Position numbers and translations under genes: made by a program
Notes under the pieces: generated by a model
The model's database searches: none
The model's input: only the letters and a program-made list of their open reading frames with translations
Told to the model about the DNA's origin: nothing
Source of the DNA: Clostridiaceae bacterium
Lineage (GTDB): Bacteria > Bacillota > Clostridia > DSM-8532
Length of the DNA stretch: 45,606 nt
Direction: 5' to 3'
Assembly (NCBI GenBank): GCA_012520615.1
Contig: JAAYNX010000045.1
Coordinates: forward strand, 1 to 45,606
Part shown: in pieces, positions 9,770 to 44,404 of the stretch
Numbering within the stretch: position 1 is the stretch's first letter
Layout: each line of letters starts with the position of its first letter

Positions 9770-10993
9770 ATGACAATTTATGACGAACTGGTGGCTCGTG
9801 GCTTAATCGCGCAGGTTACCGACGAAGAAGGCATTAAAGAGCTTATTAATAACGGTAAAGCAACATTCTATATTGGATTTGACCCAACTGCCAATTCTTT
9901 GCATGTTGGTCATTTTATGGCGCTATGCCTTATGAAGCGTCTGCAGATGGCGGGGAACAAACCGGTAGTTCTTATAGGCGGCGGCACCGCATATATAGGG
10001 GATCCATCGGGTAGGACAGACTTACGTTCCATGATGACACCCGAAACAATTCAACATAACAGTGAGTGCTTTAAGAAGCAGATGGAAAGATTCATTGAAT
10101 TTGGTGATGGCAAGGCAATAATGGTTAATAACGCAGACTGGCTTTTGAAACTTAATTATGTCGATGTCCTTCGTGAAGTTGGAATCCATTTTTCTGTAAA
10201 TAATATGCTGCGTGCAGAATGCTATAAACAGAGAATGGAAAAAGGACTGTCATTCTTAGAATTAAATTATATGATTATGCAGTCCTACGATTTTTATTAC
10301 CTATACCAGAATTACGGATGCAATATGCAGTTTGGCGGTGACGATCAGTGGTCTAATATGCTAGGAGGCAGAGAACTGATTCGACGTATATTGGGTAAAG
10401 ATTCCTACGCTATGACTATTACGCTATTAATGAATTCTGAAGGTAAAAAGATGGGAAAAACTGCGAGGGGTGCGGTTTGGCTTGATCCTAACAAAACCTC
10501 ACCTTTTGAATTCTACCAGTATTGGCGTAATGTTGATGATGCCGATGTTCTTAAATGCTTGCGTATGCTTACTTTCTTACCCCTTGAACAAATTAACGAG
10601 ATGGATAAATGGGAAGGAAGTCAGCTAAATGAAGCCAAAGAGATTCTAGCTTTTGAGTTGACGAAATTGATTCATGGAGAAGAAGAGGCAAAGAAAGCCA
10701 AGGATGCTTCTCATGCACTCTTTGCAGGAGGCACTGATGATGCTAATATGCCATCTACTGAGATTATGGCAGATAAATTGATTGACGGTGCTATCAGTGC
10801 TATGGATCTGATAGTTGAATGCGGTCTGGTACCTTCCAAGAGTGAGGCAAGACGTATAATTCAACAGGGCGGATTATTTATTAATGACGTTAAGGTTGAC
10901 TCCATTGGTTACACTATTACCTTAGAAGAATTGAAAAACGGTATCAAAATTCGTAAAGGAAAGAAAACCTACCATAAGGCATTTATTCGATGA
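9770..10993 (+). CDS. tyrS: Tyrosyl-tRNA synthetase
   Basis: This is a class I synthetase of 407 residues that attaches tyrosine to tRNA-Tyr in the cytoplasm. The HIGH motif is HVGH (45-48) and the KMSKS loop is KMGKT (227-231). The catalytic core has the TyrS signature 'YIGFDPTANSLHVGH'. An S4 RNA-binding domain occupies about residues 340-405 ('SKSEARRIIQQGGLFINDVKV' region). Length and motifs agree with bacterial TyrS. The KMGKT form is characteristic of one of the two TyrS subgroups in Firmicutes. The start follows AAAGGAGTTGTTATA. It is controlled by the tyrosine T-box upstream and ended by the strong terminator at 11021. Confidence 0.97.
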   Translation: MTIYDELVARGLIAQVTDEEGIKELINNGKATFYIGFDPTANSLHVGHFMALCLMKRLQMAGNKPVVLIGGGTAYIGDPSGRTDLRSMMTPETIQHNSECFKKQMERFIEFGDGKAIMVNNADWLLKLNYVDVLREVGIHFSVNNMLRAECYKQRMEKGLSFLELNYMIMQSYDFYYLYQNYGCNMQFGGDDQWSNMLGGRELIRRILGKDSYAMTITLLMNSEGKKMGKTARGAVWLDPNKTSPFEFYQYWRNVDDADVLKCLRMLTFLPLEQINEMDKWEGSQLNEAKEILAFELTKLIHGEEEAKKAKDASHALFAGGTDDANMPSTEIMADKLIDGAISAMDLIVECGLVPSKSEARRIIQQGGLFINDVKVDSIGYTITLEELKNGIKIRKGKKTYHKAFIR

Positions 10994-25543: not shown

Positions 25544-27763
25544 ATGCAGAAGAATTTTAACAAGGGAAAATGGAATTCTACAATTGATGTAAGGGATTTT
25601 ATTCAGAAAAATTATACACCTTATGATGGAGATAGCAGTTTTTTAGCAGAGCCTACTAAAAAAACATCGGCACTATGGGCGAAGGTTAAAGAATTTATGA
25701 AGCAGGAGAGAGATAAAGGCGGAGTGCTTGATATAGATAGTCATACCATCTCTACTATTGTATCTCATAAACCCGGATATATAGACAAGGCAAATGAAGA
25801 AATAGTAGGTCTTCAAACTGATGAGCCTCTAAAGAGAGCCATTATGCCATTTGGTGGTATCAGGATGGTTAAAGCCTCTCTGAAAGCCTATAACAGGGAA
25901 ATGGATTCTGGTGTCGAGAATGTATTTAAATACAGAAAGACACATAACGACGGTGTGTTTGATGCATACACTGATGAAATGAAAAGGGCAAGGCATACCG
26001 GAATAATCACAGGGTTGCCAGATGCATATGGAAGAGGAAGAATCATAGGAGACTATAGAAGAGTTCCCCTCTATGGTGTAGATTTTCTTATTAATCAGAA
26101 AAAAGAGGCATTAAAAAATTACGTTTTAGATATTATGAATTCTCCTGCAATTAGGCAACGTGAAGAAATAAGTGAGCAAATAAAAGCTCTACATGAGTTA
26201 AAGGAGATGGCTGCCAGTTATGGATTTGATATAAGCAAGCCTGCATACGATACAAAGGAAGCTATACAGTGGTTGTATTTTGCATATTTAGCGGCTGTAA
26301 AGGAGCAGAATGGTGCTGCGATGAGCCTTGGAAGAGTATCTACTTTTCTTGATATATATGCCAAGAGGGATTTGGAGGAAGGAAAGTATACAGAGAGCGA
26401 AATTCAGGAGTTTGTTGATCACTTTGTAATGAAGCTAAGAATGGTTAGATTCTTAAGAACACCTGCATATGATGAATTGTTTTCTGGAGACCCTACCTGG
26501 GTTACAGAAGCCCTTGCAGGTATTGGTGTTGATGGAAGGCACATGGTCACAAAAATGACATATAGGTTCATGCATACCCTTACGAACTTAGGTCCAGCCC
26601 CAGAACCTAATATGACAGTGCTGTGGTCACCAAGACTACCAGAAACTTTTAAGCAATTCTGCGCAAGACTTTCGATAAAAACTTCATCTATCCAATATGA
26701 GAATGATGATTTGATGAGGCAGGAATTCGGAGATGACTACGGCATTGCGTGCTGTGTTTCCGCTATGAGAATAGGCAAACAGATGCAATTCTTCGGAGCA
26801 AGAGCAAATCTTGGGAAGGCATTGTTATATGCTATTAATGGCGGTAAGGATGAAATAAGCGGTGAGCAGGTGAGTCCAGTATTTGCACCAATTACTTCAG
26901 AATACCTTGATTATGATGAAGTAATGGAGAGATTCAATACCATAACGGATTGGCTATCAAAGCTGTATATAAACACATTAAATATTATTCATTACATGCA
27001 CGATAAATATTGCTATGAAAGAATAGAGATGGCACTTCATGATGAAGAAATTCTTAGAACATCTGCTTGTGGTATTGCAGGGCTATCGGTAGTAGTTGAC
27101 TCCCTTTCCGCAATAAAATACGCAAAGGTCAAACCCATAAGAAATGAAAACGGCCTTGTTGTAGATTACGAAATAGAGGGTGAATTCCCCATGTTTGGTA
27201 ATAATGATGACAGAGTGGATTCGATTGCTGTTGACCTAGTAAAGAACTTCATGAATAAATTAAGCAAGCATAAGACGTATAGAAACAGTAAACCTACTAT
27301 GTCAATACTGACAATTACATCAAATGTTGTTTACGGAAAGAAGACCGGAAGCACCCCTGATGGAAGAAAAAAAGGCGAGCCCTTTGCTCCCGGAGCAAAC
27401 CCAATGCACAAGAGAGATACAAAGGGATGTGTTGCGTCAATGGCTTCTGTTGCAAAGCTTCCATATGAATACAGTGAAGATGGAATATCCTATACATTCT
27501 CCATTGTTCCTGCAGCATTAGGCAAAACAGAGAGTGAAAGATATGCTAATCTAATTGCTCTTATGGATGGCTATTTCAATGAAGGCGGTCATCATATCAA
27601 TGTTAATGTGCTTGACAAGGCAGTACTGCTTGATGCGATGGATCACCCTGAAAAATATCCGCAGCTGACTATAAGAGTCTCAGGGTATGCCGTAAACTTT
27701 ATAAAGCTTACAAGAGAGCAGCAGCTGGATGTAATTAGCAGAACATTCCACGAAAGATTCTAG
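25544..27763 (+). CDS. pflB: Pyruvate formate-lyase (formate C-acetyltransferase)
   Basis: This 739-residue glycyl-radical enzyme converts pyruvate and CoA to acetyl-CoA and formate during anaerobic growth. The adjacent catalytic cysteines are Cys403-Cys404 in '[18 protein letters not shown]', and the glycyl radical is Gly714 in 'RVSGYAVNF', 25 residues from the C-terminus. The CC pair, together with '[11 protein letters not shown]', separates it from glycerol dehydratase and choline lyase relatives. Length is standard (about 740-760). The RBS is GGAGGGTTTTAA. It is followed 101 bases later by its activase. Confidence 0.97.
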
Positions 27764-29751: not shown

Positions 29752-32178
29752 ATGAATATAAAGCTAAGTGAGTATAATGAAAAACGAAATTTTGATAGGA
29801 CAACTGAGCCGGAAGGCATTGCGGTTAATTCTGATGAGCAGTTAAGATTTGTTGTTCAGCATCATATTGCTCGTAAAAATCATTATGATTTTCGTCTGGA
29901 ATGGAACGGAACTCTTTTAAGCTGGGCAGTACCAAAAGGTCCATCCTATAACTCTTCTGACAAGAGGCTAGCTATAAAGGTGGAGGATCATCCTCTGGAA
30001 TACAGGAATTTTGAGGGTACCATCCCCAAGGGGGAATATGGCGGCGGAGTGGTAATGCTTTGGGACGAAGGAATATGGGAGCCATACGGTAATGTGGACG
30101 AAGGGCTAAATGAAGGTGTTTTGAAATTTAACTTGTATGGTGTGCGCCTTAAAGGGAAATGGGCTTTGATTCGTCTGAAAGCCAAAGCGGGTGATTCAAA
30201 GGATAACTGGCTTTTACTCAAAGAAAAAGATGAATATACCAAAACTGAAACCGGAATATCTGAATATACAACCAGTATCAGAACAGGACGCACCATGGAT
30301 GAAATCGAAGCAGGTGAAAATGATAGCTTCACTAAAAACCCATTTAGCACCGCAGAAGTTCAACTTGCAAAGTTGGTGAAAACAGTTCCGGAGGGTGAGA
30401 ATTGGATATATGAAATGAAATATGACGGTTATAGGATAATGGCTTTCGTGGAAGGCAACATTGCCAGGCTTATTACCAGAAACGGTAACGATTATACGAA
30501 GCGGTTCTTTACCGTAGGCAATTCGTTAATCGACTTTGCTAACGGCAAATCCTTTGTTTTAGATGGTGAAATGACAATAATAGATGCCACTGGCAAGACT
30601 GACTTTCAGGCACTTCAAAACCATATGAAAAACCCCATTGGTCAGAGCCTCACCTATATCATTTTTGATTTACTTGCACTGGATGGCGTTGATCTAAGAG
30701 ATCGCCCACTTTTTGAAAGAAAAGAAATATTAGAAAAACTTATGAAGGATGCACCCAAAAACCTTTATTACAGCAGGCATGTTAAAGGAAAAGGTGAGGA
30801 AAGCTTTATTGCAGCCTGTGAGGCAGGTATGGAAGGAATAATCGGGAAAAAATATGATTCGGTCTATAGTGGTACACGAAATGGGGACTGGATTAAACTA
30901 AAATGCGATAAACGTCAGGAATTTGTCATTGGAGGATTTACTCTAACCGATAAAAAGGTAAGCGGTATAAGCTCACTTCTACTCGGTGTGTACGAAAATG
31001 AGAAATTTGTTTATGTAGGACGTGCCGGTACAGGCTTTAACAAACGTAATATCAAAGAGCTTGAGACAAAATTCAAAAGCTTAATTAAAGAAAAGCCTCC
31101 TTTTACGAATCCACCCAAGATAAGGTCCAATGAAAAAATTACTTGGCTTGAACCTGAACTTGTTGCAGAAATTAAATACGCAGAATGGACAGAAGATAAT
31201 CAGTTAAGGCAAGCAAGCTTTAAGGGATTGAGAGAAGATAAGAATTCTAGGGATGTAAAAAAGGAATTGCAGGGCCAAGTATCGGAGGAACCAATGCAAT
31301 CTATGGAATCTATCGAAAGCAATATCGTTATCGGAGGAGTAAAGATTACTAGCCCGGACAAGGTGATATTTGACGATCCTAAAATTACAAAAGCCGATGT
31401 GATAAGGTATTACGAGAAAGTGGCTGAACTCATGCTGCCCTATGTGGAGCAAAGAATCCTTAGTATTGTGCGCTGTCCTAAAGGTGTAGCGCAGACATGT
31501 TTTTATAAGAAACATCCCGGTCCCGGAACCAAGGGTGTAGTCACCATTCCTATATCCAATGACGAAGGCGAATCCGAAGAATATTTTTATATTGAGAATA
31601 TGTTCGGGCTTTTATCTGAAGCACAAATGGGTACATTAGAATTTCATACCTGGGGGAGCCGTGTTAATCAGCTTGAAAAGCCCGATATAATGGTATTTGA
31701 CCTAGACCCTGATGAAGGAATGGATATAGAAAGAGTACGCCAAGGGGTGCAGGACTTAAAAAGTATTTTATCCGAGCTTTCATTAAACTCATATCTTAAG
31801 ACAAGCGGAGGAAAAGGATATCATGTAGTGGTTCCTATAAAACCTTCAGTCAACTGGGATAGATTTCGAGATTTTGCAAGAAGTGTTGTCGAGGTCATGG
31901 AGCAAAAATGGCCTGACCGATATACAAGCAATGTAAGAAAAGCTAAACGGGCCGACTAAATATTCATCGACTGGATAAGAAATGCCAGGGGTGCCACAAG
32001 TATAGCACCCTATTCATTAAGAGCGAGAAAAGGAGCTAAGGTTTCTATGCCAATTGCATGGAACGAGCTTGATGCTATAGCTCCAGACGCTGTCAGCATG
32101 GAAGATGCACTTTTGAAAATCAGGAACGAAGATCCTTGGAAAGACTTTTTCAAAAACAATCAGATGCTAAAAAACTAA
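29752..32178 (+). pseudogene. ligD: ATP-dependent DNA ligase LigD with an in-frame stop
   Basis: This is the multi-domain NHEJ ligase in the order 3'-phosphoesterase (about residues 15-160, 'HHIARKNHYDFRLEWNG'), ligase (about 200-500, nucleotidyl lysine Lys223 in 'EMKYDGYR'), and polymerase/primase (about 525-808, including 'VFDLDPDEG' with its metal aspartates). The frame is broken by TAA at 31957-31959. Directly after it, in the same frame, the conserved end of the polymerase domain continues for 72 codons ('IFIDWIRNARGATSIAPYS', then 'LRARKGAKVSMPIAW') to TAA at 32176. A single T-to-A change would restore Lys (AAA) at codon 736. The truncated 735-residue product keeps phosphoesterase and ligase but loses the end of the polymerase. 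It has no clear RBS. It could be a true nonsense mutation, a sequencing error, or read-through. Confidence 0.9.
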
Positions 32179-32330: not shown

Positions 32331-33194
32331 ATGAGAGGGAATATGGACGGTTTTGAGTTTTTAATTTTTATTTTTACCACTTTTTATACTATATTATGTA
32401 TATCTAGCTGGTATAGAAGGCTGATAGATTCCCGGCATCCGAAGAACACAACGGCAAGATTTGTCTTAGCTTTATTACCGATAATCACATTTTTTATAGT
32501 TTTATATACTCTGAGAGAATTGGCATCCTTTGATGTAGTGGATGATTCTATATATATATTATTGTACATATTAATTGGTTATACCTTGGTATTTTTTGGC
32601 TTAAAATTAGTTTTTTGTTTCTTTGATCTTTCATGGATAGATGATGCTTTAAACAATAACAACAAAGCTGCTTTATTTGCAATTACAGGAGCTTTTCTCG
32701 GATTAGTGGTAATATATTCAGGCGCTAATATAGGGGACGGCCCGGGTTGGTGGTGTGTAATATTTGCCGGCGGGTTAGGATTAATCTCCTGGATTCTTCT
32801 TGGAGTGCTTATTAATAAGTACACGCAGGTTTTTGAGCGCATCACGGTAGAAAGGGATATGTATTGCGGAATTCGATTCGGGTTATATCTACTTGCCAGT
32901 GGAATTATTTTAGGAAGAGCATCTGCAGGCGATTGGACTTCTTTTTTCATGACGGTAGTAGAATTCCTAGTCGGTTGGCCGGTTTTACTGTTGGCCTTGT
33001 TGGTTGTGTTGATAGAACGTGCATATATAAATAAGGCAAAAATGAGGGAAAACGTCAATAATTATCTTTATAGCTCCATTTACTGTGGAATCATTTATAT
33101 TCTTATTGCAATAGTTTGTGTAGTTATTTTTCCATTGCCTGAAAATCCAGTCTATGGCAGCATTTCAACGGGTTTTTTAGGAGTTGTTTTATGA
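32331..33194 (+). CDS. Polytopic membrane protein linked to a GSPS-like enzyme
   Basis: This 287-residue protein has about seven to eight predicted membrane helices. A striking motif 'NIGDGPGWW' lies in the loop after the third or fourth helix (about residue 137). It resembles DUF350/YjfL-like membrane proteins, which occur next to glutathionylspermidine-synthase-like genes in other bacteria, but I could not confirm the family by eye. The gene ends in an ATGA overlap with the GSPS-like gene, so the two are translationally coupled. The start is uncertain: ATG 32331 has little RBS, and ATG 32343 follows GAGGGAAT closely. Confidence 0.6.
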   Translation: MRGNMDGFEFLIFIFTTFYTILCISSWYRRLIDSRHPKNTTARFVLALLPIITFFIVLYTLRELASFDVVDDSIYILLYILIGYTLVFFGLKLVFCFFDLSWIDDALNNNNKAALFAITGAFLGLVVIYSGANIGDGPGWWCVIFAGGLGLISWILLGVLINKYTQVFERITVERDMYCGIRFGLYLLASGIILGRASAGDWTSFFMTVVEFLVGWPVLLLALLVVLIERAYINKAKMRENVNNYLYSSIYCGIIYILIAIVCVVIFPLPENPVYGSISTGFLGVVL

Positions 33195-34414
33195 GTAAAT
33201 CAATGGAGTTGGCATTAATACCGGAGAGTAAATATTCCGAATATCGTTATGATGTGATATTTAAGGCATATAAATGGGACCCACAGGTAGGAGACCACAA
33301 TACTATTGCAAAGCAAGTGGTCTTAATGGAAGAAGAAACGGCAAGGCAACTGGAAATGTGGGCGGAACAATTATCGGAAGAAACCATGCAAATGGAAGAA
33401 GCATTGATTAACAAACCGTCACTAGTTAAAAAACTAGGGCTGCCAAGAAAAATTCTAAAAACTCTGGAGAGGCTTTCTGGTTATGATAAAAGACAAAATA
33501 TCAGGTTGATGCGGTTTGATTTTCATCCGACTCCAACCGGTTGGGCAGTTTCGGAGGTTAACAGTGATGTGCCCGGAGGTTTAGCTGAAGCATCTGTTTT
33601 ACCGGAAATAGTATGCAAGTATTTTGATGGATACGCACCTCGTAAGCATATTGCAAAAAGCCTGCTTGAAGCATTTTCAGAGAGAATTAAGGAAAGCGGA
33701 ACAATAGCATTCGTTCATGCTACCTCCTATTCTGATGACCGTCAGGTTATGGAGTTTGTAAGCGACTATTTCCAGGCCTATGGTTACAATACTGTTTTTG
33801 CAGCACCGGACCATATAGTATGGCAAGATAAGAAAGCATTCTGTATATTAGAAGGTAAAGAAGGCCCTTTAGACGGAATTGCACGCTTTTTTCCCTTGGA
33901 ATGGCTAACGAACCTTCCACGCAAATCGAATTGGAAAGGATATTACGATTGTGCTACGCCCTCCTGTAATCACCCTGTTGCCATACTTACCCAGTCAAAA
34001 AGGCTACCGTTGGTCTGGGATGAATTAGGGGTCGATATTCCTGTCTGGAAAAAGCTTTTGCCTGAGACAAAAGCACCTAAAGCTATAAAACAAAAGGATG
34101 ATGACTGGATATATAAGCCTGCCTTAGGAAGGGTAGGGGGCGGTATTTCTATAAATGAAGCAATAACCGAGAAAGAACGTAAACAAATCAAAAAATCCGT
34201 ACAACGGGAACCTAATAGCTGGGTGGCTCAACGCAGATTTACAAGCCAACCTTTAACGGATATGAACAAAGAATCCTATCACTTATGTGTCGGCGTATTT
34301 ACTGTAAACGGCAAGAGCGCCGGGTTTTATGGAAGGATAAGCCCGTACCCGCGAATTGATGATAGGGCAAAAGACATACCATTACTAGTTCGGAAAGCGA
34401 GGGAATCAAAATGA
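33191..34414 (+). CDS. Glutathionylspermidine synthase-like ATP-grasp ligase
   Basis: This 407-residue protein belongs to the glutathionylspermidine synthase C-terminal (ATP-grasp) family, which includes YgiC and YjfC. Members form amide bonds using ATP, but these stand-alone homologues have no confirmed substrate. Visible landmarks are 'MRFDFHPTPTGWAVSEVNSD' with 'VPGGLAEAS' (about residues 107-140), and the ATP-binding 'DDDWIYKPALGRVGGGISI' (about residues 302-320). The amidase domain of full GSPS is absent. Clostridia do not generally make glutathione, so the substrate is probably another peptide or polyamine. The RBS is AGGAGTTGTTTT. It overlaps both neighbours by four bases. Confidence 0.82.
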   Translation: MSKSMELALIPESKYSEYRYDVIFKAYKWDPQVGDHNTIAKQVVLMEEETARQLEMWAEQLSEETMQMEEALINKPSLVKKLGLPRKILKTLERLSGYDKRQNIRLMRFDFHPTPTGWAVSEVNSDVPGGLAEASVLPEIVCKYFDGYAPRKHIAKSLLEAFSERIKESGTIAFVHATSYSDDRQVMEFVSDYFQAYGYNTVFAAPDHIVWQDKKAFCILEGKEGPLDGIARFFPLEWLTNLPRKSNWKGYYDCATPSCNHPVAILTQSKRLPLVWDELGVDIPVWKKLLPETKAPKAIKQKDDDWIYKPALGRVGGGISINEAITEKERKQIKKSVQREPNSWVAQRRFTSQPLTDMNKESYHLCVGVFTVNGKSAGFYGRISPYPRIDDRAKDIPLLVRKARESK

Positions 34415-35166
34415 TGAATAATCTAGATACATATAAAATTTGGGCGCCTGATGATGCATTATGGACACAATGGGCAAAACCTGTTTTATTTATGCATAAG
34501 CCAATAATGAAAAAAGATAGGCTACCTGTTCCCGAGGTAGAATGGATAGAAAACACTGTAAGCAATACAATGATTATAGTTGACCTGCCCGGACAAAGGG
34601 GAGTCACCGAAAGTCTAGCTTTAGCACGATTGGGCTACCGTCCGGTTCCGCTTTACAACGGTGTGAATGCACAATATTCATCAATGGTTGTTCCGGTTTA
34701 TGATATTGTATCGGCCTTATTTAGAGGTGCTAACGAACTTTGCACATTTAATATACGCCCAGACGCCCCTCCGGTATTCATGCTGGATTCCAACAGAATG
34801 AACGAAAGCGGGAAGCAACCCGGCAAATATGATAATCGATGGTGTGTTTTCCCACAAGATATGCCTTCCGCTGCTTTTATTATTAAGGAGGGGATTCATA
34901 AGGTAATAGTTCGCTCTGACTCGATACGAAATGATTTATCTCATATTTTGCACCGCTACCAAGAAGAAGGAATTCCAATATACCTTTGTACCGGTGAAGA
35001 ACTTAAAAAAATACCGGTAGTTAAGCCCTCACGTTATAAAAGTCTGTCATACCGTTTTTTAGCCACTCTGGGCTTGACCAGAAATGCTACCGGCGGCTTT
35101 GGCGGCATGATACCTGAACCAACGCAAAGCAATTATTCAGGATCAGGATATTATAGGTTCGGATGA
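34411..35166 (+). CDS. Unknown protein of the GSPS-like operon
   Basis: This 251-residue soluble protein was not assigned to a family. It has a mixed alpha/beta look: 'MIIVDLPGQRGVTESLALARLGYRPVPLYNG' spacing in the first third resembles a Rossmann-like half, and 'PPVFMLDSNRM' and 'DNRWCVFPQDMPSA' follow. The C-terminus is glycine- and tyrosine-rich (GGFGGMIPEP, SGSGYYRFG). Its start overlaps the GSPS-like gene (ATGATG after GAGGGAATCAAA), so it probably contributes to the same modification. No catalytic motif could be named. Confidence 0.6.
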   Translation: MMNNLDTYKIWAPDDALWTQWAKPVLFMHKPIMKKDRLPVPEVEWIENTVSNTMIIVDLPGQRGVTESLALARLGYRPVPLYNGVNAQYSSMVVPVYDIVSALFRGANELCTFNIRPDAPPVFMLDSNRMNESGKQPGKYDNRWCVFPQDMPSAAFIIKEGIHKVIVRSDSIRNDLSHILHRYQEEGIPIYLCTGEELKKIPVVKPSRYKSLSYRFLATLGLTRNATGGFGGMIPEPTQSNYSGSGYYRFG

Positions 35167-35248: not shown

Positions 35249-35836
35249 ATGATAGTTTTAGTTGAAATGTATGTTAGTTTATTGCCTGTTATTCTGGCAG
35301 GCATTCTTAATATGGTTTGGGTGAAGTCCCCATTTATTAACTCTTTAAAAAAGCCAATGGATAATGGTAAAATTCTAAGGGACGGTAAAAGGTTATTCGG
35401 GGATAATAAAACATGGAAAGGCTTTGTGGGAATGATTGTATTGACAATCATTTCTGCTGTAATTTGGGGGCTTGCCTGTGAACTTATGTCTTTGACCCGG
35501 CATAACTATTTATACCGCAATTATGATAATACTCTCATCTATAATTTAATAATAGGTTTTTTTCTTGGACTTGCATATGCAGTGTTCGAGCTTCCCAATA
35601 GCTTTTTAAAAAGAAGAATTGATATTACTCCAGGGAAAGCTATCGGAGGCGCTAAAGGGGTATTTTTTATTTTTTTAGATCAGGCTGATTCCATCTTTGG
35701 ATGCGTTTTGGTTCTGTCATTTGTGTATGAAATGAGTTTCATATTTTACTTATTATATGTTTGCGTAGGCGCAATAACACATATTGTGCTAAATATGCTT
35801 TTATACTTTTTGAGATTAAGAAAAAACATGTTTTAG
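35249..35836 (+). CDS. CDP-archaeol synthase (CarS)-like membrane cytidylyltransferase
   Basis: This 195-residue membrane protein has about five helices and resembles CarS (PF01864), the archaeal enzyme that activates unsaturated archaetidic acid with CTP, and more distantly CdsA. The diagnostic loop is 'RDGKRLFGDNKTWKGF' (residues 44-59), the CarS motif D-G-x-R-x-F-G-x-x-K-T-W-x-G. A second conserved stretch 'ELPNSFLKRRIDITPG' (about residues 113-128) and 'LDQADSIFG' (about 139-147) match the C-terminal CdsA/CarS signature. The RBS is AAAAGGTAGAAG. It heads a seven-gene operon with PSS, PSD and UbiA homologues, so its product is presumably a CDP-activated lipid. Whether the lipid is ether- or ester-linked cannot be seen. 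Confidence 0.8.
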   Translation: MIVLVEMYVSLLPVILAGILNMVWVKSPFINSLKKPMDNGKILRDGKRLFGDNKTWKGFVGMIVLTIISAVIWGLACELMSLTRHNYLYRNYDNTLIYNLIIGFFLGLAYAVFELPNSFLKRRIDITPGKAIGGAKGVFFIFLDQADSIFGCVLVLSFVYEMSFIFYLLYVCVGAITHIVLNMLLYFLRLRKNMF

Positions 35837-35845
35837 GAGAAAAAA

Positions 35846-38353
35846 GTGATATACGATTTAGGTGCAGCTTTTGTAGAAAATGTAGGTAATAAGGCAGGAT
35901 ATTTACTACAAATGAAAAACAACGGGTTCAATGTGCCCGATGGCTTTATTCTAAGTAGCCAAATATACAAGGATATTATCAATTATAACGGGATAGGAAA
36001 AATTATTAATGAAAGTCTATTGAAGTTAAATGCTGCCAATATCGGTGAAATAAGTACTGAATTAGCCGATGTTTTTGCAGATTTAATAATACCTGATAAT
36101 ATACTAGCTGAGTTATCCCGTAGAATTTGCCCAACTAAAAAATATGCCGTACGAAGCAGTGGAACAAAAGAGGATATGAAGTCCTTTTCTTTTGCGGGGC
36201 AATACAGTTCCTTTCTGAATGTTTCCGGGCCTGATGATATCGCTAAGGCAATAATCGGCTGTTACGGGTCCATGTATAACGAAACGAATCTTACGTACTT
36301 ATTTAATAACAAAATTGATTCTAAGGACTTGGATATGGCTGTTATTGTCCAAGAAATGGTGAATGCTGAAAAAAGCGGGGTAGGGTTCACAATAAACCCA
36401 ATAACCGGGGATGATAAGGAAATTGTTGTTGAGGTAGCTGAAGGCTTAGGCGAAAATATTGTAAGCGGCAAGGTACAGCCTGAAAGATATACATATAATT
36501 GGTTTGATGATCAATATACTTCAAACACGGATTATAAACTACTTGAAGAGGCTGAATTGAAGCTTCTTATGGATGTTTTGCTAAAAATACAGATTCATTT
36601 CGGGTATCCATGCGATGTAGAGTTTGCTTTTGAATCAGGAAGCCTATTCATATTGCAAGCGCGTCCAATCTCAAAAATATTCTATTCTATGATCGCTGAT
36701 CAATGGACAACCGCCGATTTCAAAGATGGCGGGGTTTCTGCCACAGTTTGCAAGCAATATATGTGGAGCCTTTACGAATACATATGGGAGATAGTTTTAA
36801 AACGGTTTTTACTGGAGACAAATCTCTTTAAAGCCAATGAACTAAGAAAACTAGGCGAAATGTTTTACGGCAGACCCTATTGGAATCTAAGCGTCGTGAA
36901 AGAAGCTATGGCAAAGATTCCTGGTTATAAAGAAAGAGAGTTTGATAGTGAGCTGGGTGTGAAGATTACCTATGATGGGAATGGACATACCACTAGGGTA
37001 ACCCCTAAATCAATATTTAGAATAATCTTGGTGGCACTTGCCCAGAGTAAAATAACTAAAAAGCAAAACAGTGATATAGAAAATTTAAAAAATGAATTGC
37101 TCGAGAAATACTTTAAGTATATTGAGATGGACTTAAACAAAAAAGCAACTGATGACATAGAACGTGTATGGCGGAATCTTGTCGAAACAGATTACCTTCA
37201 AAGTGAGGGTACATATTTCTGGCAGATATTTATTAATACGGTGCATCAACCTCTGTTCAAACAGAGCTTATCAAGGTACATCAACAGTAGTGAATACTTA
37301 GATATTATCGGCGGGTTGGAAAATGTATCCCATTTATTGCCTTTCTATGATATCTGGGGGATCAGCAGGAAGATACGTAATGCCAAAGAAGCATTGGACT
37401 TTTGGAGTAATGCTGGTTTAGACGAGATTAAGACATATTATCTTGATGGTAGTAACAAGTATTGTATCGGGGAATTGCAAGACCATATCAATAAATTCGG
37501 CTATCATTCCGAGAGAGAGCTGGATGTAACATGTCCATGCTATTTTGAAGATGTTGAGAAAGTAATAAAAATGATTAAGGACTCAATTGCCCTCGATGAT
37601 GCTTTCAGCCCCGATTTGGATAGAAAAAAACAATATAAAAGCTATCATGCCAAGCTTGAGCAAATAAGAAATCAGGTCTCTCCCAAGAAATATAAAAAGA
37701 TACTCAATAAAATTAAGAAAATGCGAAAAATGCTGTGGTGGAGGGAAGAGTTACGGGATATTTCAACAAGGTTTTATTATCTTATCAGAACCTACACTTT
37801 AAGGCTTGCAGAGTTCTACCAAACAAAAGGCATAATTGATTCTGTGGATGATATATGGTATTTAAAGATTAAAGATATATTTGAGTACATGGATAACACA
37901 AAGACTACTGAGGAATTAAAGTCAATTATTAAAAGAAATAAAACATATTATAGTTCATTTAGGAATTTCATGAGCGAAAATGAGATAGGTTCAGCCTTTA
38001 GTCATCCCTCTTCGCAGGAGATAAACGGCACTAACAGAATAATCGGAACAGGCTGCAGCAATGGTATTGTTTCAGGTACAGCCAGAGTAATAGAGAATAT
38101 CGATGAAATAGATAAATTGGAGATTGGAGATATTCTTATCACCAAGTTTACTGATACTGGATGGACAAGCAAGTTTGCCATTCTGAAAGGCATCGTCACT
38201 GAATACGGCGGAATTCTGTGCCATGCCGCCATAGTCTCAAGAGAGTACGGTATACCTTGTATAGTGAGTTGCTACGATGTTACAAAGAAAATCAAAGACG
38301 GTAGCAGTATTACCATCAATGGAACCACCGGCGAAGTGATTATTGATGGCTAG
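35846..38353 (+). CDS. Rifampin-phosphotransferase-type dikinase (ATP-binding/His-swivel), copy 1
   Basis: This 835-residue protein has the three-part layout of rifampin phosphotransferase and of PEP-synthase relatives. The N-terminal PPDK-type ATP-binding domain spans about residues 1-280 ('GNKAGYLLQMKNNGFNVPDG', 'AVRSSGTKEDMKSFSFAGQY', 'FILQARPIS'). A long helical middle region (about 290-720) follows. The C-terminal swivelling domain has catalytic His793 in 'GILCHAAIVSREYGIPC'. There is no PEP/pyruvate-binding TIM barrel, so it is not a PEP synthase. Family enzymes move the beta-phosphate of ATP via the His to a hydroxyl, giving AMP and Pi. The substrate, set by the middle domain, may be a prenol or a glycerol lipid given the neighbours. 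GTG start after TAGGAGAAAAA. Confidence 0.82.
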   Translation: MIYDLGAAFVENVGNKAGYLLQMKNNGFNVPDGFILSSQIYKDIINYNGIGKIINESLLKLNAANIGEISTELADVFADLIIPDNILAELSRRICPTKKYAVRSSGTKEDMKSFSFAGQYSSFLNVSGPDDIAKAIIGCYGSMYNETNLTYLFNNKIDSKDLDMAVIVQEMVNAEKSGVGFTINPITGDDKEIVVEVAEGLGENIVSGKVQPERYTYNWFDDQYTSNTDYKLLEEAELKLLMDVLLKIQIHFGYPCDVEFAFESGSLFILQARPISKIFYSMIADQWTTADFKDGGVSATVCKQYMWSLYEYIWEIVLKRFLLETNLFKANELRKLGEMFYGRPYWNLSVVKEAMAKIPGYKEREFDSELGVKITYDGNGHTTRVTPKSIFRIILVALAQSKITKKQNSDIENLKNELLEKYFKYIEMDLNKKATDDIERVWRNLVETDYLQSEGTYFWQIFINTVHQPLFKQSLSRYINSSEYLDIIGGLENVSHLLPFYDIWGISRKIRNAKEALDFWSNAGLDEIKTYYLDGSNKYCIGELQDHINKFGYHSERELDVTCPCYFEDVEKVIKMIKDSIALDDAFSPDLDRKKQYKSYHAKLEQIRNQVSPKKYKKILNKIKKMRKMLWWREELRDISTRFYYLIRTYTLRLAEFYQTKGIIDSVDDIWYLKIKDIFEYMDNTKTTEELKSIIKRNKTYYSSFRNFMSENEIGSAFSHPSSQEINGTNRIIGTGCSNGIVSGTARVIENIDEIDKLEIGDILITKFTDTGWTSKFAILKGIVTEYGGILCHAAIVSREYGIPCIVSCYDVTKKIKDGSSITINGTTGEVIIDG

Positions 38354-38366
38354 AAAAGAGGGACAA

Positions 38367-38978
38367 ATGTTTATAGGAAAATACAATAAATCTGTAATTG
38401 TAACTTATATAGGTGTAGTATTTTCGCTTCTGGCGATAATTAATGCCTTGGATAACAATATCGGGCTATCCATGATATTTTTGATTCTGGCAGGAATCTG
38501 TGATCTTTTTGATGGTAAATATGCCAATTCATTTAAGCGAACAGAGGAAGAAAAAGAATTCGGGGTTCAGATAGATTCCCTTGCTGATATGATTAATTTT
38601 GTGGCAACACCGGTTATTGTGGCTCTCTGCCTTGGATTGAACAGTTGGTATCATGTAATTATATACAGCCTTTACATACTTGCTGGCATGACCAGACTAG
38701 GATATTTCAATATTCAGGCAAATGAAACCAAAACCCCTGTAACCCATTATAAGGGGCTTCCCGTAACATATGCAGCCCTTATATTTCCGGTCTTTTGGCT
38801 GTTTTCATTGTGGATTCCGGCAAGCACATTTAAAGCCTTATATACACTTGCCATGCCTATTACAGCAATAATGTTCATAATGAATATCAAAATTAAAAAG
38901 CCCAGAGGCATAGCTTACCTGTTTTTTGTATTTTTAGCCGTCGTTTTAATCGGGTTGATTTTAATGAAAGGTATATAG
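38367..38978 (+). CDS. CDP-alcohol phosphatidyltransferase, phosphatidylserine synthase-like
   Basis: This 203-residue membrane enzyme would exchange CMP of a CDP-lipid for an alcohol headgroup, here probably serine. The CDP-OH-P motif DxxDGxxAR-x(n)-GxxxDxxxD reads Asp46-x2-Asp49-Gly50-x2-Ala53-Asn54, then Gly66-x3-Asp70-x3-Asp74, so all four metal aspartates are kept but the Arg is Asn. About six helices are visible. ATG 38367 follows GAGGGACAA at good spacing. An alternative start at 38343 or 38346 overlaps the preceding stop region and adds residues lacking in homologues. The decarboxylase gene begins on the base after its stop, which supports serine as headgroup. Confidence 0.85.
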   Translation: MFIGKYNKSVIVTYIGVVFSLLAIINALDNNIGLSMIFLILAGICDLFDGKYANSFKRTEEEKEFGVQIDSLADMINFVATPVIVALCLGLNSWYHVIIYSLYILAGMTRLGYFNIQANETKTPVTHYKGLPVTYAALIFPVFWLFSLWIPASTFKALYTLAMPITAIMFIMNIKIKKPRGIAYLFFVFLAVVLIGLILMKGI

Positions 38979-39854
38979 ATGGAAATTAAAATATACGACA
39001 GAAAAACAAAAGAGGTTGTTATAGAAAAGCAATATAAGGAAGGCCATTTGAAATTCTTATACAATACTGTTATTGGTAGAGTATTATTAAAGTATATTTT
39101 TGCCCGTAAATATTTTTCGGGAATTTATGCTAAATTCATGATAAGTAAAAGGTCTGTTAAGAAAATTAAGCCCTTCATCGAAAAGTTCAATATTGATATG
39201 AATGAATATGAAGGCGCAGAGTATAAAAGCTTTAATGACTTTTTTATTAGAAAAAGGACATATCTCGCGCCCTTACCCCAATTGAGCAATAACATCCTAA
39301 TTTCAGTGGCAGATGCGAAATTATCAGTTTATAGCATTAATGATGAATTGAAAATAAATATAAAAAATAGCATCTATACTGTTAGCAGCCTAGTAAGGGA
39401 TGAAAAAATCGCAGATGGATACAGAAATGGAACCTGCCTTGTTTTTCGCTTAACTGTTGATGATTGTCACAGATATCTGTATATTGACGATGGTCATGTA
39501 AAAAGCCATAAATCAATTGCCGGGGTATTACATACTGTGGGGCCGATATCATCTTACAGGCACAATGTCTATATTGAGAATCAAAGAGAAGTTTCTGTAC
39601 TGGAAACCGAAAATATCGGTGATTTTGTTCAAATAGAAATCGGCGCTATTCTGGTTGGCAAAATAATAAACCACCCTGTTACTTCCTTTAAAAGGGGAGA
39701 TGAAAAAGGGTATTTTTCCTTCGGTGGTTCCACCATCGTTCTTCTTTTTAAAGAAGGGGCAGTAAAAGTTGATGACGACATCCTTGGCTTTTCGAAAAAA
39801 GGGATTGAAACTAAGGTAAGGCAAGGAGAAAAAATAGGAGAAATAGTAAAATGA
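38979..39854 (+). CDS. psd: Phosphatidylserine decarboxylase-type enzyme
   Basis: This 291-residue pyruvoyl-dependent decarboxylase makes the ethanolamine headgroup from the serine lipid. The self-cleavage motif is 'FGGSTIVLLF', with Ser251 becoming the pyruvoyl group; it reads GGST where most bacterial enzymes have LGST. The His of the Asp-His-Ser triad is in 'DDCHRYLYIDDGHV' and an Asp in 'SVADAKL'. 'YHxR-like HTVGPISSYRHN' follows, as in PSD. Length is typical of the clostridial-type PSD. In an archaeal-like pathway the same fold acts as archaetidylserine decarboxylase. It overlaps the UbiA gene by four bases (ATGA). Lipid backbone specificity is not readable. Confidence 0.9.
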   Translation: MEIKIYDRKTKEVVIEKQYKEGHLKFLYNTVIGRVLLKYIFARKYFSGIYAKFMISKRSVKKIKPFIEKFNIDMNEYEGAEYKSFNDFFIRKRTYLAPLPQLSNNILISVADAKLSVYSINDELKINIKNSIYTVSSLVRDEKIADGYRNGTCLVFRLTVDDCHRYLYIDDGHVKSHKSIAGVLHTVGPISSYRHNVYIENQREVSVLETENIGDFVQIEIGAILVGKIINHPVTSFKRGDEKGYFSFGGSTIVLLFKEGAVKVDDDILGFSKKGIETKVRQGEKIGEIVK

Positions 39855-40756
39855 TAAAAAGGATTAATATTTATTTGAAAGAAATGTATCCGGTATTACC
39901 ACGTTTATTATTGGGCTTTATACTGTTCTTTGAGATATACTTTCTTGTGATACTAACAGCGAATGTTAAAGGCATCAATATTGGATTACAAGAAGTAGTA
40001 GGAGCAATTACAGTATTTACATTTTTGATGTCACTGAGAATTGCAGATGAATTTAAGGATTACGAATCGGATTTAAAATTGTTTCCTGAAAGACCATACC
40101 CGTCAGGCAGAGTAAAGAAGAATGACTTAGTTGTATTGCTTACAGTAATAAGTGTTATCACAGTAGTGCTCAACTTAGCTTTCATGAATAATTTAATATA
40201 CTTTGCTATATTAGTCATATATGGAACTGTAATGTCTTTGTGGTTTTTCAGTAAGCATAAGATACAAAAGAGCCTTCCGTTAGCATTAATCACACATAAT
40301 CCTGTTCAACTTATATTAAATCTGTACATCATATCGTTTGCTTGCTTGAAATACAATCTTCCCATTTTTACTTTTAACAACATTATCATTTTGTTTACCC
40401 TCTATTTTCCCGGGCTGATTTGGGAGATATCCAGAAAAACGAGGGCTCCAAAGGAGGAAACAGAATACATAACATACTCAAAAATATTCGGTTATAAGAA
40501 ACCGACTAAGTTTATTATGCTTGTAATGGCTTTGGATGTGATTACTACCTCCATACTAATGTACCAGCTCTACCCGGTAGCAGTAGTCACGGTGGTAGTA
40601 AGTTATCTCTGGTTTCTAAAACAGGGCATGGACTTTATAAAAAATCCAAATAGATTTAAGCTGGTGGATAAAGTGATAATATATGAGTATGTTACAGAAC
40701 TTACTGTTGTTATTGTAGAAGCAATTTTCATAATTGATAAATTTGCAGGAGTATAG
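39851..40756 (+). CDS. UbiA-superfamily prenyltransferase
   Basis: This 301-residue membrane protein has about eight to nine helices. The first Asp-rich motif is Asp66-x3-Asp70-x3-Asp74 in 'RIADEFKDYESDLKLFPERP', followed by 'YPSGRV', which strongly resembles the UbiA pattern ending in P-x-R-P-x-x-S/G-G. The second motif, usually DxxxD in loop 6-7, is weak: 'WEISRKTRAPKEETEYITYS' occupies its position. UbiA enzymes transfer a prenyl group from a diphosphate to an acceptor (quinone, haem, chlorophyll, or geranylgeranylglyceryl phosphate in archaea). No quinone or haem gene is nearby, while CarS-, PSS- and PSD-like genes are, so a DGGGP-synthase-like role is the best guess. The atypical second motif leaves room for other acceptors. 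Confidence 0.75.
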   Translation: MIKRINIYLKEMYPVLPRLLLGFILFFEIYFLVILTANVKGINIGLQEVVGAITVFTFLMSLRIADEFKDYESDLKLFPERPYPSGRVKKNDLVVLLTVISVITVVLNLAFMNNLIYFAILVIYGTVMSLWFFSKHKIQKSLPLALITHNPVQLILNLYIISFACLKYNLPIFTFNNIIILFTLYFPGLIWEISRKTRAPKEETEYITYSKIFGYKKPTKFIMLVMALDVITTSILMYQLYPVAVVTVVVSYLWFLKQGMDFIKNPNRFKLVDKVIIYEYVTELTVVIVEAIFIIDKFAGV

Positions 40757-40757
40757 G

Positions 40758-43316
40758 ATGAATAGCTTCATAATTGATATAAATAATTATCAAAATTCTA
40801 ATGTCGGAGCAAAAGCATACAATCTATTCCGGATGAAAGAAAACGGTATTAACGTACCGGACTTTTTTTGTATTGATTCCGCATATTTTGATAATTACCT
40901 TAATAACTTGCCAGAGATAAAAAATTCAATTAAACCGGAACGCTTTAATGATGAAGAATATCTAAAATCATTAAGCCTGCAATTTAAGGACTACATAAAT
41001 GAAATAAAATTCGATGAAGATTTTATAGATGTAATAGAACGATATATATGCAATAACTACGAAAATGCGGATTTATTTTCGGTAAGATCAAGCTCTGTTG
41101 TTGAAGATGGAAAGGACAGCTCCTTTGCCGGGCTTTTTGATACCGTGCTGAATGTTTCCAGTGGGCAGCTTTTTGAAGGGATAAAAAGTTGTTTATTCTC
41201 ATTGTTTTCACCCAATGTATTAAAATATTGCCTAGAAAGAAATGCTGATATAAACGAGTTGAAAATGGGAATCATTATTCAGAAAATGATTCCGGCATAT
41301 ATTTCTGGTGTTGCGTTTACGGCCAATCCTAGAGGTTTGCTAAATGAAATAATTATTGTAGCAGGCTATGGGTCTGGTGATTTAATAGTGGAAGATAAAG
41401 TCCCAACTATTACTTACTATTATAATATTACAGACAAAAACTATTACTACGAAAATCAGCCCGGCTCCCCGGTTCTAGATAATGAAAATTTACAAAAAAT
41501 AATTGATGCAATAGACAATGTAAAGGTATTGTATGATGGGCACTTGGATATTGAATATGCGCTTTATCAAAATAATCTATACATATTGCAAGCAAGGCCC
41601 ATAACCACCTTAAAAGTTGATAAAATAATTGTTCTAGACAATAGCAACATCGTTGAAAGTTATCCCAATGTCTCGCTGCCCCTTACCACATCCTTTGCAA
41701 AAGAGGCTTACTATGGGGTGTTTAGGGGCCTTGCAAAAAGATGCTTGTCTAACGGAATATTGGTCAATAAATATGACCATGTACTCAAAGCTATGGTTGA
41801 GAGTGTGAACGGAAGAATGTACTATCAGATTAACAGTTGGTACACACTTATTGAAACCCTGCCGTTTAGCAAGAAAATTATTCCGGTGTGGCAAGATGCC
41901 CTTGGAGTATCAAGCAAAGAATATCACGCTGAAAAGGTTAAAACCGGCGTTTGGCAAAAAATCAAAACTTGGTTTAGTGTTATTAAACAGTTTGTCTCTG
42001 TTCCAAAGCAAATGAACAGCTTAAATGAGCAATTCATCGATGTAAGTGTACACTTTAATGAGAAATACCAAGATAGTCTAAGCAATGACGAATTAAAGGT
42101 GCTGTACGAAAGTATATCCGAAAAGGTCTTAAAAAACTGGGATATTACTTTGCTTAACGATTTATATGCATTTGTTTTTGTTGGACTGTTAAAGAGCTAC
42201 TTTAAAAGAATTAAGGTACCTGACTATGAGGCTGAAGTAAATAAGTATATTTCAGGAATAACCAACATAGAAAGTATGGAGCCTGTTAGGAAACTGATGG
42301 AGCTTGCAATGCTGGGCTGCGATGAGGGAGTCATAGATGATTTATCAGTTTTAGAAAACGATAAAGACCTAGAAGAGTATTTGTTAAATAATCAATCGGT
42401 TTTTTCTGATAAGTTTAAAGAATATATTAAAATGTACGGAGATCGATCATTAGAAGAGCTGAAACTGGAAAGCCACACATATAGGTCTTCTCCGATTACA
42501 TTGGTTAAAAGGATAATCGAATATACAGAAGATAAGGATAAGCTTGATAGCGTAAATCAATCGCTAAATAAAAAAGAAAACAAAGACTTGCCAAATATAT
42601 ATATGAAAAGACATTCTTTTATAAATAGGCTAATTGTAAGGTATATCAGCAATAAAGCAATGAGTGGCATAAAAAATAGAGAGATTTCGAGAATGAACAG
42701 AAGTAGGATTTACGGGATGGTACGAACAATCTTTTTAACTATAGGAGACAACCTGTCAAAGTCCGGATTAATAGAAAGCACCAATGATATTTTTTATTTA
42801 ACAACTGCCGAAGTCTTCGATACTATTTCTGGGATAAAGCTTGAACTTAAAAATATAGTAGATTGCCGGAAAAAAGAGTATATACTGTTTAGAAAGCTGC
42901 CCAATAACTCAAGAATGATTTTTGCCAACAGAATTTTCGATAAAAAGCACATTAATATAAACTCTGAAGATTTGTTAAAAAAACCGGATGAGATATCGGG
43001 AATACCATGCTCCAATGGAATAGTTACAGGGGAGATTTTGGTGGTTGATAATCCGGAAAAAGCAGATAATTACAGGGATAAGATATTAGTAACTAAAACC
43101 ACTGATCCGGGTTGGGTGTTTCTATTAACGCTGGCAAAAGGAATTATAGCTGAAAAAGGCTCTCTGCTGTCCCACACGGCAATTATCTCCAGGGAGTTGA
43201 ATATACCTTCCATTGTCGGAGTTAAAGATGCAACCCGCATTCTAAAGACCGGAGATATTATTAGAATGAACGGTGACACAGGGGAAATTAGAATAGAAAA
43301 GAGTGCATCTGAATGA
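40758..43316 (+). CDS. Rifampin-phosphotransferase-type dikinase, copy 2
   Basis: This 852-residue homologue of the protein at 35846 has the same order of domains. The ATP-binding domain has 'GAKAYNLFRMKENGINVPDF', 'SVRSSSVVEDGKDSSFAGLF' and 'LYILQARPITTL'. A long helical middle domain (about 290-730) follows, then a swivel domain with His806 in 'GSLLSHTAIISRELNIPS'. The middle regions of the two copies differ more than their ends, so they may act on different substrates or in sequence. No PEP-binding barrel is present. ATG 40758 follows GCAGGAGTATAGG; a longer upstream frame runs into the UbiA gene. Two such enzymes in a lipid operon is unusual. Confidence 0.82.
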   Translation: MNSFIIDINNYQNSNVGAKAYNLFRMKENGINVPDFFCIDSAYFDNYLNNLPEIKNSIKPERFNDEEYLKSLSLQFKDYINEIKFDEDFIDVIERYICNNYENADLFSVRSSSVVEDGKDSSFAGLFDTVLNVSSGQLFEGIKSCLFSLFSPNVLKYCLERNADINELKMGIIIQKMIPAYISGVAFTANPRGLLNEIIIVAGYGSGDLIVEDKVPTITYYYNITDKNYYYENQPGSPVLDNENLQKIIDAIDNVKVLYDGHLDIEYALYQNNLYILQARPITTLKVDKIIVLDNSNIVESYPNVSLPLTTSFAKEAYYGVFRGLAKRCLSNGILVNKYDHVLKAMVESVNGRMYYQINSWYTLIETLPFSKKIIPVWQDALGVSSKEYHAEKVKTGVWQKIKTWFSVIKQFVSVPKQMNSLNEQFIDVSVHFNEKYQDSLSNDELKVLYESISEKVLKNWDITLLNDLYAFVFVGLLKSYFKRIKVPDYEAEVNKYISGITNIESMEPVRKLMELAMLGCDEGVIDDLSVLENDKDLEEYLLNNQSVFSDKFKEYIKMYGDRSLEELKLESHTYRSSPITLVKRIIEYTEDKDKLDSVNQSLNKKENKDLPNIYMKRHSFINRLIVRYISNKAMSGIKNREISRMNRSRIYGMVRTIFLTIGDNLSKSGLIESTNDIFYLTTAEVFDTISGIKLELKNIVDCRKKEYILFRKLPNNSRMIFANRIFDKKHININSEDLLKKPDEISGIPCSNGIVTGEILVVDNPEKADNYRDKILVTKTTDPGWVFLLTLAKGIIAEKGSLLSHTAIISRELNIPSIVGVKDATRILKTGDIIRMNGDTGEIRIEKSASE

Positions 43317-44404
43317 ATTATAAATTAATCCGATTCGATAAAGAAGAAAACTATATAAATGATTTTTTACAACTTCCAAAAAAATTGTACTCAAAACTCG
43401 ACATTGTGCAAAATGAGACAGAAGAATTGGATTTGCTTTTGGGAAGACATGTTTTAAGCAAGTATTTCGTGTTACATAAATTAATTGTATATAGCGGAGA
43501 TTTACCCTGTGCCAGATGCGTGATTACAATATATCCGGGGGATTCTGTTGCATATCTGGGACTATTTGAGAGTATTGATGACATTGAATGTGCTAGGCTT
43601 TTATTTCATGAAGGAAGAAGAATATCAATAGAAAATAAATGCAATAAGATTCAAGGCCCTGTTGATGCCAGCTTTTGGGTTAGGTACAGATTGAAAACCA
43701 GTGGATTTCAGAAGAAAGTATTTGTAGCAGAACCTAATAATAAAGAATATTACTTAAAACTATTTCTGGATGCCGGGTTCGAAATATGTGAAAAATACAT
43801 ATCTAACTATTATAAAAGGTTGCCGTTGCTTAGGTTTAATAATAAAAAAGCTAAGGATAGGTATAATCGGTTTATTTCAAAAGGTATCAAAATAATTACA
43901 CCAAAAGCCAAAGATTTCGATGATATAATAAGCGACATTTACAACTTATTGATGGAGTTATATTCTGAATTACCTGTTTTTAAGCCTATCAGCCAAGAGG
44001 ACTTTATAAAGTATTTCAGCAATTATCGACATATTTTAGATTATTCATTTGTAAAGCTTGCATATCATGAAGATAATGCTGTTGGGTTTATTATAGGTAT
44101 GCCTGATTATGGGAATATGCTTTACAGAAGACTTAGTTTCATCGATTATATCAAGTTGTTTCTTAAAAAGATACGATCAAAAAACTACGTAATTCTTTAC
44201 ATGGGTGTGAAAAAGGAATACCGTGGCCTCGGAAATGCAATGATTCAGACCTTGTTCAAGAATGTCCAAAAAAGAAGGTCACACACCATCGGGGCACTTA
44301 TCAAAGAAGGTAAGGCAACCGGCCAATATGTATCCAATCAAATTATTTCAAAGAATACTTATGTTCTGCTGAGTAAGTCATGCGGTAAATTTGATTTATT
44401 GTAG
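43313..44404 (+). CDS. GNAT-type acyltransferase of a lipid-linked family
   Basis: This 363-residue protein has a double GNAT fold. The first half contains 'KIQGPVDASFWVRYRLKTSGF' with the G-P-x-x-x-S-x-W pattern seen in a family of GNAT proteins often found with lipid or sphingolipid genes. The second half has a clearer acetyl-CoA-binding core with 'LYMGVKKEYRGLGNAMIQTLF' (R-G-L-G-N loop, about residues 300-320). Such proteins acylate amines; the ethanolamine headgroup or an amine on the prenyl lipid could be the target. The start overlaps the preceding gene by four bases. It ends the operon; a palindrome and a promoter follow. The specific activity is inferred. Confidence 0.65.
   Translation: MNYKLIRFDKEENYINDFLQLPKKLYSKLDIVQNETEELDLLLGRHVLSKYFVLHKLIVYSGDLPCARCVITIYPGDSVAYLGLFESIDDIECARLLFHEGRRISIENKCNKIQGPVDASFWVRYRLKTSGFQKKVFVAEPNNKEYYLKLFLDAGFEICEKYISNYYKRLPLLRFNNKKAKDRYNRFISKGIKIITPKAKDFDDIISDIYNLLMELYSELPVFKPISQEDFIKYFSNYRHILDYSFVKLAYHEDNAVGFIIGMPDYGNMLYRRLSFIDYIKLFLKKIRSKNYVILYMGVKKEYRGLGNAMIQTLFKNVQKRRSHTIGALIKEGKATGQYVSNQIISKNTYVLLSKSCGKFDLL

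Follow-up and report, generated by a model that had tools for sequence, protein, structure and literature searches.

What kind of lipid would a bacterium build with an operon that places relatives of four late archaeal lipid enzymes beside two dikinases and an acyltransferase? The question is raised by a contig of a Clostridiaceae bacterium (JAAYNX010000045.1, assembly GCA_012520615.1), analysed here over 45,606 nucleotides, a stretch hereafter referred to as the window. As late as 2020, isoprenoid side chains were not known from the membrane lipids made by any bacterium (PMC7852524). The operon consists of seven open reading frames, all on the + strand, that span positions 35249-44404 and are separated by at most 9 bp where they do not overlap:

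35249..35836, +, CarS-like CTP:lipid-phosphate cytidylyltransferase (Pfam PF01864, NCBIfam PRK04032)
35846..38353, +, dikinase 1, with ATP-grasp and phosphohistidine domains (PPDK_N and PEP-utilizers)
38343..38978, +, PSS-like CDP-alcohol phosphatidyltransferase (CDP-OH_P)
38979..39854, +, phosphatidylserine-decarboxylase family protein (PSD), clostridial type (PS_Dcarbxylase, PRK00723)
39851..40756, +, UbiA-superfamily membrane transferase of a divergent branch (NF010118, i.e., PRK13592)
40734..43316, +, dikinase 2 (NF004882, PPDK_N and PEP-utilizers)
43313..44404, +, tandem-GNAT acyltransferase (predicted fold; GNAT Pfam match near cut-off)

The seven-gene feature described in the original prediction is confirmed: each of its packed or overlapping genes was recovered as an open reading frame at the same coordinates, and the families are backed by Pfam and NCBIfam matches together with the predicted fold of the GNAT. 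The gathering of CarS-like, CDP-OH-P, PSD and UbiA families in one operon is supported by the same models. A promoter scan rose barely above chance (57 vs 46.9, sd 5.1), and terminator-like hairpins numbered 14 vs 5.5 in shuffled sequences, those listed all lying inside genes and therefore given no weight.

Conservation and genomic setting of the operon

Comparison of gene neighbourhoods across Clostridia, for which the genomes of 84,980 species were scanned, bore out the operon. The identical seven genes occur in identical order in Clostridium lacusfryxellense (L007) and in the uncultured Clostridia SKW257 (L008), six of the seven are found in a metagenome-assembled genome from goat omasum (L010), whose operon is missing the PSS, and a short contig (L009) carries a three-gene fragment. 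Chance does not account for the grouping, since the first two relatives share both gene content and gene order with the window and the third shares six genes; those flanking genes that have matches in the window are not common to the operon loci of these relatives. The ranking of the relatives is the same whichever gene is taken (L008 > L007 > L009/L010), with identities in that order of, for example, 79, 74, and 53% for UbiA and 66, 59, and 40% for dikinase 2. For the operon genes dN amounts to 0.13-0.30 and dS is at least 1.7 or saturated, dN being far below dS in all seven, and by these rates every gene of the operon is evidently under purifying selection.

The draft genome of the host comprises 256 contigs and is 98% complete. 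The contig is considered native to it because tyrS (9770-10993), located on the same contig, is single-copy in the host and 84-88% identical to its counterparts in four genus mates; together with partly syntenic contigs of sister species, this rules out bin contamination. The UbiA model NF010118 is absent from 32 other genomes of the order and from 397 others drawn from the phylum. Genes that flank the operon occur without it on contigs of the sister species G009 and G010, and in G009 the three genes preceding the operon in the window run straight into other genes; the operon was therefore either gained in the host lineage or lost in its relatives. A phage or plasmid origin was rejected, as the window UbiA has no match among viral contigs or plasmids; the non-clostridial version of the module described below is carried by one plasmid. 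Assignment to a defence system was likewise discarded, PADLOC giving no match for UbiA or either dikinase. Upstream of the operon, three tightly spaced genes (32331-35166) encode a DUF350 protein, an ATP-grasp protein similar to glutathionylspermidine synthase, and a protein of 251 aa that belongs to no Pfam family; the trio is also present in G009. Further upstream, positions 29752-31959 hold a DNA ligase D-type non-homologous end-joining gene, unusual in an anaerobe, and the genome also encodes a pyruvate formate-lyase (25544-27763).

Likeness to the archaeal pathway and its limits

The CarS-like protein matches PF01864 with 62.3 bits (cut-off 22; 7.8e-17) and the CDP-archaeol synthase equivalog PRK04032 with 77.6 bits, under the cut-off of 148 (relatives, 74-80). 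A grouping with CdsA paralogues had been envisaged as the contrary outcome; its nearest relative is CDP-archaeol synthase, the sole solved protein related to it by sequence (PDB 5guf). The motifs FG(D/E)NKTWKG, SFLKRR, and DQADSIFG are common to four operons. The PSS-like protein matches CDP-OH_P (51 bits, 3.5e-13) and, below their cut-offs, the archaetidylserine synthase models NF038087 (84.4 bits, cut-off 240) and TIGR04217 (73.3 bits, cut-off 200) and the pssA model (68.5 bits, cut-off 107); its catalytic motif DxxDGxxA...GxxxDxxxD is present, with Asn replacing the usual Arg of the CDP-alcohol motif. The PSD matches PS_Dcarbxylase (PF02666; 142.7 bits, 1.5e-41) and PRK00723 (279 bits) and retains an intact self-processing site (GGST, within GGSTIVLLF); the operon PSDs cluster together in a tree with weak support (63/94).

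The operon copy is the only PSD of the host, which also has an ordinary CdsA gene separate from the operon (at L041), adjoined by genes that we take to be dxr and uppS, and two other CDP-alcohol transferases besides the PSS-like protein. Three relatives with the operon encode one or two further PSDs each, mostly ~40% identical to the operon copy. These relatives also possess an ordinary CdsA and, with it and the additional PSDs, do not depend on the operon as their phosphatidylethanolamine pathway. The proposal that a dedicated, CDP-activated lipid is built beside the ester lipids thus gains support from the CdsA of the host and the extra PSDs of its relatives.

UbiA itself is divergent, scoring 26 bits against Pfam UbiA (cut-off 34) and 416 bits against NF010118/PRK13592 (cut-off 443), although its AlphaFold model (mean pLDDT 87) displays the long helices of the superfamily. 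Motif 1, DExxDxxxD, is present as LRIADEFKDYESD, and the spacing of its Asp residues is retained in 17 of 17 sequences. The aspartates of DGGGP synthase (DGGGPS) motif 3 (Mj D180, D183, and D187) are not found in the UbiA family of the module, which carries ExxRKxRxPxxExxxxTYSxxxG instead; the other UbiA proteins encoded by these hosts mostly retain them. In DGGGPS, D66 and D70 of motif 1 and D180, D183, and D187 of motif 3 are each required, and motif 3 affects the binding of GGGP (PMC9385802). As motif 3 is missing, both donor and acceptor may differ from those of any known UbiA protein, and the basic residues that replace it suggest an altered phosphate site.

Of all solved chains, just two proteins were retrieved by the UbiA family profile, DGGGP synthase (3.4e-6) and chlorophyll a synthase (8e-6). 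Foldseek of the model likewise gave DGGGP synthase as its best hit (E 1.3e-4), and the next protein of another kind followed at 0.02. In VIA-align, the model aligned with DGGGPS 6m31 (Z 18.3, rmsd 3.8, 271 residues aligned), a phosphoribosyl transferase (8j8j; Z 17.0, rmsd 3.6, 266 aligned), a UbiA homologue (Z 16.9) and a second DGGGPS entry (Z 16.7); the lead of DGGGPS is small, and the fold alone therefore does not decide. The nearest protein by profile, and by a narrow margin also by fold, is DGGGPS, which like chlorophyll synthase is an O-prenyltransferase. An ether or ester product is favoured because these nearest solved relatives prenylate oxygen rather than aromatic carbon.

Upstream of UbiA, the archaeal pathway depends on GGGP synthase. 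A search with PF01884, which was positive in the controls (B. subtilis and four archaea), returned from the host only a short match below cut-off (50 of 226 positions), and from 13 other module hosts no match in ten and short partial matches in three. The pcrB/GGGP synthase gene that the original prediction would have placed elsewhere in the genome was thus found in none of the 14 module hosts. The host has two prenyl synthases and G432 has one; as the sisters of the host also have two, acquisition of the operon does not seem to have brought a dedicated prenyl synthase.

Set against the archaeal phospholipid pathway (GGGPS, DGGGPS, CarS, ASS, ASD), the operon likewise contains UbiA, CarS-like, PSS-like and PSD members, i.e., an ethanolamine-lipid set, but it differs in having no GGGP synthase, no DGGGPS motif 3, a clostridial PSD, and an extra complement of two dikinases and a tandem GNAT. 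The claim of archaeal late steps therefore stands insofar as UbiA and CarS are nearest to archaeal enzymes, and falls short on the absence of GGGP synthase, the loss of motif 3 and the origin of the PSD; by the tests made, the operon resembles the late archaeal steps in outline and is apparently not a member of that pathway. The "archaeal lipid" genes of Ca. Cloacimonetes likewise place a bacterial UbiA-type lipid gene alongside ester-lipid genes (PMC7852524). That set comprises GGGPS, DGGGPS, and a polyprenyl synthase without CarS, whereas the operon described here has CarS-like, PSS, PSD, and divergent UbiA genes without GGGPS (PMC7852524).

The dikinases, the GNAT and a core module shared with other phyla

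Both dikinases bear the NCBIfam name PEP synthase, an identity that is excluded by the missing PEP/pyruvate-binding domain: Pfam detects only PPDK_N and PEP-utilizers, with the phosphohistidine mobile domain at the C-terminal end, and finds no C-terminal PEP/pyruvate-binding domain in either protein. What they have in common with rifampin phosphotransferase, PigC and PEP synthase is the combination of ATP-grasp and phosphohistidine domains with a catalytic His (motif GGILCHAAI in dikinase 1 and GSLLSHTAI in dikinase 2); the lack of the PEP/pyruvate-binding C-terminal domain sets them apart from PEP synthase. Dikinase 1 is 65-74% identical in L007 and L008 and 48% in L010, and was seen only together with CarS, in clostridial operons; for this reason it is tentatively assigned to the phosphorylation of a lipid alcohol before CDP activation. 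Dikinase 2 exceeds the NF004882 cut-off (952.7 bits vs 850) and aligns with rifampin phosphotransferase over two stretches, the best being residues 560-854 (the last 295), the middle substrate segment being matched little or not at all. These enzymes may have the proposed roles of prenol or glyceryl-prenyl kinase; phosphorylation of prenols by such a dikinase is not known. The GNAT protein scores just below the Pfam cut-off (20.2 bits), and its AlphaFold model (pLDDT 84) is matched by Foldseek to tandem GNATs (E 1e-12), all general ones that point to no particular substrate.

Distant UbiA relatives (26-32% identity) mostly adjoin a dikinase-2-like gene, and most of their clusters include a GNAT relative, 18-28% identical to that of the operon. 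In all 12 loci compared from other phyla, dikinase 2 rather than dikinase 1 is the better-scoring match of the UbiA-adjacent dikinase. The carriers belong to Verrucomicrobiota, Planctomycetota, Acidobacteriota, Pseudomonadota, Actinomycetota, Melainabacteria, and Rokubacteria, making about eight phyla with Clostridia. Additional products encoded by the non-clostridial clusters are a DUF3419 (BtaA-like) protein, an OleC-like AMP ligase, for which NF006754 is the best model, and a membrane protein of kinase-like appearance; a near-constant cluster of UbiA, dikinase, DUF3419, kinase-like, GNAT, and ligase genes, often led by HMG-CoA reductase, recurs in about seven phyla (L013, L015-L023, and L047). 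From the shared and the differing genes, the clostridial operon divides into a conserved core (UbiA, dikinase 2, and GNAT) and an exchangeable half, which consists of CarS, dikinase 1, PSS, and PSD in Clostridia and of DUF3419 and others elsewhere. The archaeal interpretation, which did not include this core conserved across about eight phyla, is accordingly supported in part and too narrow. Among cyanobacteria, a Roseofilum locus (L012, 9944-13940) has a UbiA of the same branch, upstream of a gene related to dikinase 2 at a distance of ~460 bp, with the rest of the cluster absent, and two other loci have UbiA alone.

Several partner genes of the non-clostridial clusters bear on the nature of the product. 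BtaA converts diacylglycerol and SAM to diacylglycerol-O-homoserine (PMC10685587), and a DUF3419 gene is what the non-clostridial version has in common with betaine lipid synthesis (BtaA/BtaB); the clostridial operon lacks it, and betaine lipid synthesis, unlike the module, involves no UbiA, dikinase, GNAT, or ligase. HMG-CoA reductase is not found in the clostridial operons. In the tested hosts whose clusters include it (G436-G442; L016-L018 and L020-L023), mevalonate-diphosphate decarboxylase was not over cut-off; the reductase may therefore not feed isoprenoids there, and mevalonate itself might be a building block, given the adjacent OleC-like ligase and GNAT. The kinase-like membrane protein resembles dolichol and phytol kinases by eye and has no significant Pfam match; identification of its C-terminal half as phytol-phosphate kinase (DUF92) was discarded as unusable (E 0.42, in one of eight members), and homology between it and CarS was rejected, hhalign finding none. 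The ebo cluster is also a widely scattered bacterial cluster around a divergent UbiA-superfamily protein, EboC; the UbiA protein scores only 20 bits against the EboC model, and the eboB, eboD, eboE, and eboF families (TatD-like, sugar-phosphate cyclase, EboE, and EboF) are not found in the operon by Pfam/NCBIfam.

Candidate product and competing readings

The main reason to regard the product as a polar lipid is that head-group genes are swapped around a fixed core. We consider that there is an even chance that the operon makes an O-prenylated, phosphoethanolamine-headed polar lipid without GGGP synthase, beside the ester phospholipids, with the dikinases supplying phosphorylated intermediates. 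UbiA would prenylate an oxygen atom on a backbone, either a polyol or a lipid, and the GNAT would acylate the same intermediate; with the beta-phosphate of ATP, dikinase 2 would phosphorylate a hydroxyl group on either the acceptor or the prenyl donor. Dikinase 1 would phosphorylate the finished lipid alcohol, CarS would convert the phosphorylated lipid to a CDP-lipid, and PSS would add serine, from which PSD would then leave phosphoethanolamine. The O-prenylation, the order of steps, the substrate of each dikinase, the function of the GNAT and the identity of the product are all inferred. A wider proposal, held more tentatively, is that the core of UbiA, dikinase and GNAT defines a widespread class of bacterial lipids, isoprenoid-acyl hybrids made without GGGP synthase, whose head would be phosphoethanolamine in Clostridia and of homoserine type (BtaA-like) in other phyla.

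The retained fold and motif 1 of UbiA, and a profile that finds only O-prenyltransferases among solved proteins, argue against a non-isoprenoid lipid, in which UbiA would transfer another group or make a small prenylated polyol or aromatic, and CarS, PSS, and PSD would decorate an acyl lipid carrying it. The replacement of motif 3 by basic residues and the presence in the superfamily of a phosphoribosyl transferase that aligns nearly as well as DGGGPS (Z 17.0 vs 18.3) are consistent with such a lipid, as is HMG-CoA reductase without mevalonate-diphosphate decarboxylase beside an OleC-like ligase and a GNAT, where mevalonate could serve as building block; the clostridial operons are without HMG-CoA reductase, and we judge this reading rather unlikely. 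Salvage of prenols, a variant of the preferred reading in which the dikinases phosphorylate free prenols for UbiA as phytol kinases do in tocopherol synthesis, would suit an operon without a dedicated prenyl synthase and the by-eye likeness of the kinase-like membrane protein in other clusters to dolichol and phytol kinases; its one DUF92 match is non-significant and cannot serve as evidence, no such dikinase is generally known to act on prenols, and salvage seems quite unlikely.

An archaeal diether, with GGGP made elsewhere in the cell, UbiA acting as DGGGP synthase, and CarS, archaetidylserine synthase and the decarboxylase leading to archaetidylethanolamine, would explain the four late families in one operon and the fact that UbiA, CarS, and PSS each score closest to archaeal enzymes. 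It is nevertheless very unlikely: PcrB/GGGP synthase is missing from the host and the 13 other hosts, DGGGPS motif 3 is lost, the PSD is clostridial, and such a pathway offers no role for a GNAT or for the pair of dikinases. Finally, CDP-OH-P and PSD families are common and the only PSD of the host lies in the operon, which would fit a further set of ordinary phosphatidylethanolamine genes that merely adjoin unrelated ones; that UbiA, the dikinases, and the GNAT are inherited along with this set in several genomes, that an ordinary CdsA is present, and that the other PSDs of relatives are mostly ~40% identical make this highly improbable.

If the preferred reading is true, archaeal-like late steps combined with bacterial dikinases and no GGGP synthase would constitute a second route across the lipid divide, and a role would be provided, in about eight phyla, for many UbiA and "PEP synthase" proteins that are misleadingly named in databases. 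No paper describing the UbiA-dikinase-GNAT module or the near-constant non-clostridial cluster was found in the open-access literature, and the main interest of the locus lies in a widespread core module whose product is undescribed in open-access papers and one carrier of which is culturable. Because this carrier, the Antarctic Clostridium lacusfryxellense, is a deposited type strain (DSM 14205), the operon is directly testable. Directly downstream of the operon in C. lacusfryxellense lies a large NRPS-like gene (L007, 14833-20346) that is absent at the window.
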